Assembly (NCBI RefSeq): GCF_014202975.1
Contig: NZ_JACHHZ010000004.1
Span: 434,001-498,000, forward strand
Length of the DNA stretch: 64,000 bases
Reading direction: 5' to 3'
DNA from: Povalibacter uvarum
GTDB lineage: Bacteria > Pseudomonadota > Gammaproteobacteria > Steroidobacterales > Steroidobacteraceae
Shown here: piece after piece, positions 15,748 to 22,154 of the stretch
How the letters are laid out: every line of letters starts with the position of its first letter
How positions within the stretch are numbered: position 1 is the first letter of the stretch
Translations under genes and position numbers: made by a program
Notes under the pieces: model-generated
What the model was told of the DNA's origin: nothing
What the model saw: only the letters and a program-made list of their open reading frames with translations
Database searches by the model: none

Positions 15748-16446
15748 ATGCTCCCCATCCGCGCCATCTGCTTCGATCTCGACAACACCCTGTGGGACGT
15801 GTGGCCCGTGATCCGTCGCGCCGAACAGGCGACGTTCGACTTTCTCGCCGAACGCTATCCACGGGCCGTGGAGGGGATGACGATCGAATCGATGCGTGAC
15901 GCCCGGGCGCGCGTTTCGCTCGACTTCCCACACATGGCGCATGACTTTTCGTTCCTGCGGCAGCAGGCGTTACGCGAGCATGCGGCGGCTTGCGGCTACC
16001 CCGAAGCGATGTCCCGGGAGGCATTCGACGTCTTCATCGCCGCCCGGAACGATGTGGAGTTGTATGCAGAAGTCCGTCCTGCCCTGGATCTGTTGCGTCA
16101 GCGATACCGCCTGTTCACCGCCAGCAATGGCAACGCGGACCTCGCCCGGATTGGCCTGGCCCCTTTGTTCGAACGGACCATCGCCGCGCGGGACGTCGGC
16201 GCGCTAAAGCCCGATCCGGCTGTTTATCGCAAGGTTCTGGAGGGGACCGACCTTCGCCCGGGGGAGACCCTGTTCGTTGGGGATGACCCGGAGCTGGACG
16301 TCGAGGGCGCCCGGAAGGCGGGGATGCCGACCGTGTGGGTGAATCGGACCGAGGCGGTCTGGCCAGTGGAACTGGAGCCGGCAACCTATTCTGTGACGTC
16401 GCTCACCGAACTGACCGCGTTGCTCGTTCCTGGTGCGAGGGGCTGA
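15748..16446 (+). CDS. HAD-superfamily hydrolase
   Basis: A 232-residue HAD phosphatase. Motif I is FDLDNTLWDV (nucleophile and general-acid Asp), motif II the Ser/Thr around LFTASNGN, motif III Lys in VGALKPDPAVY and motif IV GDDPELDVEGA. A helical cap lies between motifs I and II (about residues 20-100). The domain order fits the subclass that dephosphorylates small metabolites such as phosphoglycolate, sugar phosphates or nucleotides. The substrate is not resolved. It sits directly behind metZ, but no role in methionine synthesis is implied by its sequence. Confidence 0.88.
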   Translation: MLPIRAICFDLDNTLWDVWPVIRRAEQATFDFLAERYPRAVEGMTIESMRDARARVSLDFPHMAHDFSFLRQQALREHAAACGYPEAMSREAFDVFIAARNDVELYAEVRPALDLLRQRYRLFTASNGNADLARIGLAPLFERTIAARDVGALKPDPAVYRKVLEGTDLRPGETLFVGDDPELDVEGARKAGMPTVWVNRTEAVWPVELEPATYSVTSLTELTALLVPGARG

Positions 16447-16687
16447 CCGGGCGCGACTTTCCGGCGCGGTTGTCTGTGCAACGGGGGGCGCCTCAAAGCC
16501 CGTGGAATACGTTGTATGCCGGTGGTTCACTGCCCCTTGTAGCTATTTGCCTTGATTTGAGCTTTGGCGTAGATTTCGCGCCGTTCGTTGCCTTTGCCTG
16601 CTTTTTTCTCTGGCTTGGCCAGCCGGGTCATTGATGACCCCCCATGTTTCGGCCAACTTCTGAAAAATCCGACGAGACCGCGAACGT
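16447..16687. other. Intergenic stretch before the RRM leader
   Basis: About 240 bases without a convincing gene. The sequence is less GC-rich than its surroundings around 16540-16610, with several T-runs (for example CTTTTTTCTC near 16600). These may hold the promoter of the RRM transcript. A 75-codon frame on the minus strand here has no recognisable protein features. Confidence 0.5.
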
Positions 16688-16800
16688 AGGCCTGGGACCA
16701 ATACCGGCGTTCTGTGGCAACACAGACATCGGGGGAGGAGCCCGTTTGTAACCAGGCCTCGCAGTGTCATCGTCTGAGTGACGACGCTCGAGGCTTTTTT
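16688..16800 (+). promoter_or_regulatory. Attenuator-like structured leader of the RRM gene
   Basis: An outer stem pairs AGGCCTGG (16688-16695) with CCAGGCCT (16752-16759). Inside it CCG/CGG (16704-16706 with 16730-16732) and a perfect hairpin TCTGTG-GCAA-CACAGA (16711-16726) can form. Overlapping the right side of the outer stem, GCCTCG (16756-16761) pairs with CGAGGC (16789-16794) and is followed at once by six T residues (16795-16800). The two stems share 16756-16759 and exclude each other, the layout of a riboswitch or other attenuator. The RRM start codon is 21 bases after the T-run. The ligand or trigger is unknown. It could also be a small RNA ending in this terminator. Confidence 0.55.
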
Positions 16801-16820
16801 CAGAGAGAGACTGTTCGTTT

Positions 16821-17132
16821 ATGACGAAGATCTATGTTGGCAATCTGCCTTTCTCCGCAACCGAGCAGGACGTTCGTGCGCTTTTCGAAGCACACGGCGC
16901 CGTGCAGTCCGTCGCCCTGATCAACGACCGTGAAACCGGCCGTCCTCGTGGCTTCGGCTTCGTTGAAATGTCGAGCGCCGATGCACAGCGCGCTATCCAG
17001 TCCCTGAACGGCAAGGACATGGGTGGTCGTCCGCTGCGCATCAACGAAGCGCAGGAGCGCCAGGGCGGCGGCGGCGGCGGCGGCGGCGGCCGCGGTCCTC
17101 GCGGCGGTGGCGGCGGCGGCGGTCGCTGGTAA
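16821..17132 (+). CDS. RRM RNA-binding protein with Gly-rich tail
   Basis: A 103-residue single-RRM protein. RNP2 is KIYVGNLPF (residues 3-11) and RNP1 is RGFGFVEM (about 44-51). After residue 80 the tail is almost pure Gly with Arg (two G-runs flanking GRGPRGG), like plant and cyanobacterial glycine-rich cold-induced RNA-binding proteins. It should bind single-stranded RNA and act as a chaperone or cold-shock factor. It has a structured leader with an internal terminator and a strong terminator behind it, so it is a one-gene unit. A close paralogue without the Gly tail lies at 21647-21922. Confidence 0.95.
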   Translation: MTKIYVGNLPFSATEQDVRALFEAHGAVQSVALINDRETGRPRGFGFVEMSSADAQRAIQSLNGKDMGGRPLRINEAQERQGGGGGGGGGRGPRGGGGGGGRW

Positions 17133-17169
17133 TCCAGCGAGAGCTTAAGCAACTCAAGCAGAACGAAGA

Positions 17170-17204
17170 CCCCGCGGTGCGAGAGTGCCGCGGGGTTTTC
17201 TTTT
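17170..17204 (+). terminator. Rho-independent terminator of the RRM gene
   Basis: CCCCGCGG (17170-17177) pairs perfectly with CCGCGGGG (17188-17195) over a 10-base loop. TTTTCTTTT follows. It lies 38 bases after the RRM stop. Confidence 0.93.
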
Positions 17205-17206
17205 AT

Positions 17207-17270
17207 GGTGACGTGTGACCGGTGACGCATGACGCGAAGCCGGCGGCAGACTCTTGCCCGTCACCCGTCA
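17207..17270. repeat. Heptamer array with inverted arms (GGTGACG / CCCGTCA)
   Basis: Four 7-base units (GGTGACG, TGTGACC, GGTGACG, CATGACG; 17207-17234) face two CCCGTCA units (17257-17270) across a 22-base spacer. The arms are partly complementary and can fold as a hairpin. The remaining sequence up to 17471 holds no convincing gene or terminator. Confidence 0.75.
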
Positions 17271-17471
17271 GCACTTCCCCCTCGCGGCTGCTAATTCCAT
17301 CCCGCGACCCGCATCACAGCCTTCCGCCTCCGGAACCTGAATCCTCGTTTCAGGATTAGAAACATTGGCCGACAGAGAAAAGCAGGGAGCTCGTTTATTT
17401 TGCTGGTACGGAACTTGAAAGGCTCGAGGTACAACGTTTGAGGCAGGTGTCAGTGAACGAGGTGCTGTGCG

Positions 17472-21646: not shown

Positions 21647-21922
21647 TTACCAGCGCGGAGCCTGGCGCGGCGGGCGCGATTCGCGCTCGCGTGCTTCGTT
21701 GACTCGCAGCGGCCGGCCGCCCATGTCCATGCCATTCGTGTGTTCGATGGCCTTCTGCGCATCGGACGGCGGCATGTCGACAAAACCGAAGCCGCGCGGC
21801 CGACCGGTTTCGCGGTCGTTCACGAGCTTGACGGATTGAACGCTGCCGTACTGTTCGAAGAGCTTGCGGACTTCTGCCTCAGTGGCGCTGAACGGAAGAT
21901 TTCCCACGTAGATCGTCGTCAT
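21647..21922 (-). CDS. RRM RNA-binding protein, short form
   Basis: A 91-residue single-RRM protein with RNP2 TIYVGNLPF and RNP1 RGFGFVDM. It is a close paralogue of the protein at 16821: the segment NDRETGRPRGFGFV is identical. The Gly-rich tail is replaced by a short Arg/Pro tail (ERESRPPRQAPRW). It probably has a similar RNA-chaperone or cold-response role. The 10-mer GGCCTCGCAG lies 55 bases before its start, against 56 bases before the other RRM gene. No terminator hairpin with a U-tract was seen directly behind it. Confidence 0.93.
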   Translation of the reverse strand: MTTIYVGNLPFSATEAEVRKLFEQYGSVQSVKLVNDRETGRPRGFGFVDMPPSDAQKAIEHTNGMDMGGRPLRVNEARERESRPPRQAPRW

Positions 21923-21977
21923 CGATAGTCACTCATTATCGCGGACCGAAACAGCAGTCGCTCACCCGCCCGAGGCC

Positions 21978-21987
21978 CTGCGAGGCC
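21978..21987 (-). promoter_or_regulatory. GGCCTCGCAG leader motif shared by both RRM genes
   Basis: Read on the minus strand, this 10-mer ends 55 bases before the RRM start at 21922. The same 10-mer at 16755-16764 ends 56 bases before the other RRM start, where it forms part of the attenuator. Here GCCTCG is repeated once more just downstream, and no T-run follows, so the terminator arm is not conserved. Confidence 0.45.
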
Positions 21988-22119
21988 GTCAAGGCGGAAG
22001 AGACGAGCTGCACCGTGGTCGTTCGCACAGGACTGAACAGCAAATCGTGCCAGAGGATCGGAAACGCTTGTCGCGATAGAGAGGTGGTCGCCTGAAATGC
22101 TTCAGTTGAATACGTTGTT

Positions 22120-22154
22120 GTGCTGACCGCGGGCGATACTACGTCAGCACTTTT
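22120..22154. repeat. Inverted repeat between small genes
   Basis: GTGCTGAC (22120-22127) and GTCAGCAC (22143-22150) form a perfect 8-base stem with a 15-base loop. Four T residues follow on the plus strand. No plus-strand gene ends here, so it may serve the minus-strand transcript of the 65-residue protein instead. The rest of the 339-base gap 21923-22261 contains a G-rich tract near 22237-22250 and no convincing gene. Confidence 0.6.

Follow-up and report, generated by a model that had tools for sequence, protein, structure and literature searches.

The window analysed here, a 64,000-nucleotide stretch of Povalibacter uvarum DNA, carries on its forward strand a small gene (16821-17132) whose 103-residue product combines an RRM domain (Pfam RRM_1, E = 2e-22) with a glycine-rich tail; four matches to this protein are present in the genome. 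The first-pass annotation described the gene as cold-shock-type. The RRM assignment stands, while the remainder of that label has the domain plus glycine-rich tail as its sole basis. A terminator-like site follows the gene (17165-17200, forward strand), and upstream of it lies a structured leader of about 220 nt, extending from a putative promoter (16547-16575) to a U-tract that ends at 16800. The features named in the first-pass annotation are present, but they cover only the last half of the element: an alignment of 19 leaders places the true start about 105 nt farther upstream. All leader features described below are on the forward strand.

Alignment of the upstream regions of 14 orthologs revealed conservation from a promoter-like TTGCCT-17-TAGATT arrangement to the U-tract and, judged by eye, past it to an AGAGAGA motif. 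The putative promoter consists of TTGCCT (16547-16552), a 17-nt spacer, and TAGATT (16570-16575); by eye, TTGC and TA are kept in the orthologous leaders and the remaining -10 bases vary. Counted by hand, it agrees with the consensus at 8/12 positions and so falls short of the threshold of the promoter scan, which detected no promoter, neither for the leader nor separately for the RRM gene. We infer a transcription start near 16582. Folded as a consensus, the 19 leaders reach -33.7 kcal/mol, compared with -5.0 ± 2.4 for 50 column shuffles (lowest, -10.2), and a conserved, structured RNA leader is very likely to be real. We rejected a leader peptide as the conserved entity: by eye, the 19 leaders have no reading frame in common, and the lengths from the 5' helix P1 to the start codon (235 to 264 nt) differ by non-multiples of three.

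Fifteen leaders were used to build a covariance model of the 5' domain, which identified one copy each in 19 of 217 Steroidobacteraceae genomes, representing 3 of 25 genera, in a search whose stricter filters can lose weak matches. In a sample of the order, nine of 246 genomes carry a copy, all nine within the same family. In every one of the 19 copies, the RRM gene lies directly downstream. A nucleotide profile of 14 window-type leaders, searched against the leader set of RRM genes, recovered beyond these only L165 and one chance-level second match in L015.

The 5' domain, which the first-pass annotation had missed, comprises three predicted helices. P1 pairs CGTTCG (16582-16587), at the predicted 5' end of the transcript, with CGAACG (16681-16686); 97.4% of its cells are paired in the 19 leaders, and five of its six pairs are invariant. 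Inside P1 lie P2, formed by TTTTTC (16603-16608) and GAAAAA (16662-16667; 96.5% of cells paired, no compensatory changes in the 19 leaders), and P3 (TTGGCC/GGCCAA, 16615-16620 with 16651-16656). The latter encloses P3a, a short variable hairpin (GGGTC/GACCC, 16625-16629 with 16636-16640). P3 is paired in 92% of cells and P3a likewise in 92%, with one double change (in L010). A near-invariant block of 46 nt runs from the 3' strand of P3 through AGGCCTGGG (16651-16696) in the alignments of both 15 and 19 leaders. The 31 pairs of P1-P4 together contain one double change, a count that 37 of 500 shuffles also reach, so covariation neither proves nor contradicts P1-P3. In the window leader, the predicted probability of P1 falls from 0.99 when P4 is complete to about 0.1 in the finished leader, where other folds win, an argument against P1 lasting into the completed structure.

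Directly after P1 follows P4, the outer stem and candidate antiterminator, and after P4 the terminator. The strands of P4, AGGCCTGG (16688-16695) and CCAGGCCT (16752-16759), are perfect complements, as first described, and all eight pairs are present in all 19 leaders; four of them show one-sided changes of the G-U type, with every cell remaining paired. The apical part of P4 (16697-16751) is variable except for a conserved GGAGCCCG (16737-16744). In the window it contains the GCAA-capped hairpin of the first-pass annotation (TCTGTG-GCAA-CACAGA, 16711-16726), whose sequence is not conserved in the alignment of 19 leaders; the tetraloop was accordingly dropped as a conserved feature.

The last four bases of the P4 3' strand are also the start of the terminator stem. 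This hairpin (16756-16794) pairs GCCTCG (16756-16761) with CGAGGC (16789-16794) and AGTG (16763-16766) with CGCT (16785-16788), and it is followed by six T residues (16795-16800), in agreement with the earlier description; 20 nt separate this T-run from the ATG at 16821. Across the 19 leaders, the U-tract is T6 in four, T5 in 13, and T4 in two. The terminator apical part varies in sequence, yet the hairpin folds in each of the 19, with an energy z-score below -2 in 14 (range -3.8 to -0.6). Its 10-bp stem is paired in 97.4% of cells. The covariation score of the terminator is 0.173 versus a shuffle mean of 0.121 and is reached by two of 500 shuffles, a comparison in which, as the tool warns, related sequences can beat shuffles without any structure; slid controls gave at most 0.10 versus 0.17. 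Of the two stems whose covariation the first-pass annotation proposed as a check, the terminator covaries, subject to that warning, and P4 is fully paired with one-sided changes only.

The mutual exclusivity of the two stems holds throughout: over the named arms, both overlapping stems are fully paired in all 19 leaders. Five rows of the alignment carry substitutions in the competing stems, and both stems are intact in all five. Of the 72 single changes that are possible, by contrast, just 12 would leave both standing (12 of the 24 transitions). These possible changes were typed on six of the 19 rows, with the substitution check covering all 19, and the substitutions amount to few events among related sequences. 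An 86-nt piece with the outer stem and a 61-nt piece with the terminator each beat 200 of 200 dinucleotide shuffles (z = -2.9 and -3.5, respectively). For two longer pieces that include both stems, eight and six of 200 shuffles fold equally well, and the minimum-energy fold of both contains the terminator.

A promoter-like site and a terminator around long conserved blocks are also what would be expected of a trans-acting sRNA of about 220 nt, with the RRM gene transcribed by leaky readthrough. We consider such an sRNA quite unlikely, as the element is located only before the RRM gene in 19 genomes and a plain sRNA would have no evident need for the preserved overlap between P4 and terminator. 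That no separate promoter was found for the RRM gene points in the same direction but is a weak argument, because the scan found no promoter at all. 6S RNA, another promoter-to-terminator unit, was considered and discarded, the only 6S match of the genome being on another contig.

Taken together, sequence and structure prediction give a pair of exclusive stems, of which the second is an intrinsic terminator that precedes the start codon. The attenuator layout recognized in the first-pass annotation is upheld in that the exclusive stems are conserved, similar in predicted energy, and preceded by a promoter-like site. To compare the energies, each state was enforced and the ensemble energies were calculated at 37°C for the 19 leaders, all at equilibrium. 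The two states lie less than 5 kcal/mol apart in 15 of the 19; the difference (terminator minus P4) ranges from -13.2 to +1.4 kcal/mol, and the terminator state is lower in 16, by 13 kcal/mol in leader L012. Default readthrough would therefore rest on kinetics. In the window leader, the one leader followed through chain growth, P4 forms before the terminator, with a predicted probability of 0.97 once its own last base appears; that of the terminator stays at 0.2 or below throughout. These predicted energies fit, but do not prove, an attenuator whose default state follows folding order and effector. That the leader is a transcription attenuator is likely, with moderate support overall.

Just downstream of the U-tract, a purine-rich AGAGAGAG (16802-16809) marks a possible ribosome-binding region that is complementary to UCUCUG (16607-16612). 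The AGAGAGA motif is kept in 18 of the 19 leaders; L020 differs there and also lacks UCUCUG. Among those 18, twelve have a predicted probability of UCUCUG-AGAGAGA pairing of at most 0.07, four lie between 0.38 and 0.49, and two exceed 0.9. The folds included 3 nt of coding region for L200, L201, L205, and L206 and 30 nt for the other 15, so the two high values are not strictly comparable with the rest. Sequestration of the ribosome site by UCUCUG was set aside, since strong pairing is predicted in two leaders only. These two, L205 and L206, belong to another genus, have a T4 U-tract, and show predicted pairing of 0.92 and 0.98 (with 3 nt of coding region), as if, according to the folds, their output had shifted from transcription to translation. 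The mixed effect of the fold on the ribosome site would also suit a leader that is structured yet unregulated and serves mRNA stability or constitutive partial termination. Such a leader would not predict exclusive stems in 19 of 19 cases or energies within 5 kcal/mol in 15 of 19, and we regard it as highly improbable.

The leader of cspA refolds and thereby changes translation; it too is long, structured, and located before the gene of a small RNA-binding chaperone. By analogy, the leader could be a temperature sensor that refolds in the cold and raises RRM synthesis. When the temperature is lowered from 37 to 15°C in the predictions, UCUCUG pairs less with the ribosome site (mean 0.22 falling to 0.04), which favours this reading, but the mean unpaired probability of the ribosome-site region stays nearly constant (0.21 to 0.25). 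Furthermore, the platform of the window leader is a terminator, and cooling from 37 to 10°C moves the predicted balance toward this OFF state in 17 of 19 leaders and away from it, by at most 0.4 kcal/mol, in two. A cold-ON thermometer is therefore not favoured, and the temperature switch suggested in the first-pass annotation gains little from these predictions. In favour of thermosensing, a cyanobacterial RRM protein, Rbp1, is needed for adaptation to cold (PMC9333190). On balance, we judge a temperature-sensing leader very unlikely.

Comparison with known RNA families gave no match at the Rfam 15 cut-off, either in the window or in 15 loci, in keeping with the initial impression that no named riboswitch class is present. 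With the threshold relaxed to E = 10, the stretch 16400-17300 gave 10 matches, none of them anywhere near its cut-off. A single one, HOTTIP_3 (10.2 bits versus 50), overlaps the leader; of the others, seven fall on the distal terminator and two within the coding region. These results bear on whether the same attenuator might respond to a small ligand or another protein, as a strict riboswitch or a ribosome- or chaperone-sensing leader. The near-invariant 46-nt block resembles a binding site, and the layout is that of a domain plus a terminator platform. However, the downstream gene encodes an RRM protein in all 19 cases and none of these genes serves metabolite synthesis or transport, and Rfam offers no family at cut-off. 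An effector of this kind appears unlikely.

Among known regulatory leaders, those of ribosomal protein genes come close in principle, since their fold picks the antiterminator or the terminator under control of the gene product. The choice of folds is the same, but the effector class is another, and the window leader has no Rfam match. As its name suggests, the Chlorobi-RRM motif (RF01697) sits upstream of RRM genes, a link also found for the window leader (19 of 19). It was unmatched in the window, in 16400-17300 up to E = 10, and in four genomes, and its model spans 73 positions versus about 220 nt for the window leader. Its published listing presents Chlorobi-RRM as a candidate structured RNA that is probably biological and probably cis-regulatory (Weinberg 2010, PMC2864571). 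Both are thus candidate structured RNAs with an RRM link, Chlorobi-RRM belonging to another bacterial phylum; we consider it the nearest published kind and a functional analogue. The 2010 paper was the only one found on this motif, and RRM does not appear in the main text of a 2024 survey of new bacterial noncoding RNAs (PMC11109978). Our literature search found nothing on Steroidobacter RRM proteins or Steroidobacteraceae riboswitches; its coverage of subscription journals was thin, and an earlier description is possible. For the Bacteroides RRM protein RbpB, a binding site in its own mRNA has been described, "implying the potential for autoregulation", and the accessible part of that description includes neither an attenuator nor a conserved leader (PMC11697453). 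The leader thus appears to be a new RNA family of an already known general type.

Our best reading is that the element is a previously undescribed cis-acting attenuator for RRM autoregulation. Transcription would begin near 16582, and the nascent RNA would fold P1-P3 and then P4, which would hold CCAGGCCUCG and block the terminator. If P4 were opened, the freed strand could pair with CGAGGC, and transcription would end near 16800, before the gene. Because the leader has two competing shapes, one of which would stop transcription, the gene probably tunes its own output. The RRM protein is a plausible ligand given the gene linkage in 19 of 19 copies and the similar leaders of paralogs, and our best single guess from the sequences is that it acts as the effector in a negative feedback. 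Alone or with its paralogs, it may bind the near-invariant 5' domain and open P4, which would limit its own synthesis. What the analysis shows directly is the sequence and its conservation, the gene linkage, the maintained complementarity of both stems, and their similar predicted energies; that transcription ends here in living cells, what the effector is, and which way the feedback runs are inferred. Taken as a whole, the view that this cis-acting structured 5' leader of the RRM gene is a transcription attenuator with the RRM protein as its most likely effector has, in our judgement, an even chance of being correct.

Many other RRM genes of the family are preceded by leaders with a related outline: P1 at the 5' end, a P3-like hairpin, and a P4-like hairpin right after P1. 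P1 pairs in 117 of 150 cells with 25 distinct combinations (64 leaders), versus a shuffle mean of 109.4, a value that 46 of 10,000 shuffles match or exceed; because pairing guided the choice of anchors, this count is biased upward. Of the paralog leaders, the count took 45, leaving out L032, which failed the anchor, L116, and the partial-length, unrecognised, and MTTI-type leaders. In paralog leaders, the pair at position 3 of P1 varies in type. On average, the hairpin that follows P1 is stronger than in 100 of 100 shuffled sets (5.9 versus 5.09, maximum 5.51; 44 leaders, L156 excluded); one comparison used 34 of 36 paralog-leader references, without L003 and L141. In per-sequence folds of the paralogs, P3 takes the forms UGGCC/GGCCA, UGGUC/GACCA, UUGACC/GGUCAA, and UGGCU/AGCCG.

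Paralog leaders are further predicted to form a rod (e.g., L129:527-619) in which helices of two to four pairs alternate with small internal loops, most of them symmetric (GG.UCG.AAC..UUC..UUUA), giving it an unusual periodicity. Covariation in this rod is no better than in shuffles among ten leaders, though far above slid partners. The MTTI type is represented in the window by a second RRM gene on the reverse strand (21647-21922), 4.5 kb away, with a leader at about 21923-22147. Aligned with 10 same-genus genomes (11 leaders, L143 excluded), this leader gives a consensus fold of -10.3 versus -2.1 ± 2.0 for 50 column shuffles, the lowest of which (-10.4) is equally low.

A model built from ten paralog leaders (R2) matches six of the 19 window-type leaders at full length and in register, at weak E-values (0.03 to 0.8); the other 13 are unmatched, and the same E range includes one antisense match. 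Over 120 family genomes, R2 finds 26 places in 17 genomes (12 loci read directly, 14 by identity with loci already read). An RRM gene follows at 23 of these, a broken RRM remnant at two, and a glycosyltransferase gene at one. For two of the 23 linked RRM genes, a stop was counted inside the matched stretch. All 14 genomes matched in the order sample belong to the same family. Given the shared outline and the R2 matches to both, common descent of window-type and paralog-type leaders is likely on sequence comparison.

Several paralog-type leaders stand apart from an intact RRM gene. L228 (G000:C3:502970-503058) precedes a glycosyltransferase gene, and no RRM motif was seen in the interval; this leader may have been captured, or it may mark where an RRM gene was lost. 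L232 (G000:C3:523646) and L230 (G003:C5:26732) lie before apparent broken RRM remnants, a hint that an RRM gene may be copied together with its leader and later degenerate.

By eye, the leaders of the other RRM genes show no clear terminator; an effector common to all of them would there have to act through a different output. A broader scenario, possible but doubtful in our view, is that most of the family's small RRM genes are under the control of one old RNA element. The P1-P3 rod would be a common receptor for RRM proteins, coupled in one paralog to a terminator switch and in the rest to different outputs, and the paralogs would sense their total level and cross-regulate one another.

To our knowledge, the targets of bacterial RRM proteins and the control of their amount are largely open questions. 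The leader before the RRM gene in 19 genomes would provide a defined RNA target with a readable ON/OFF platform, amenable to a simple transcription assay, and it would add an RNA family to Rfam.
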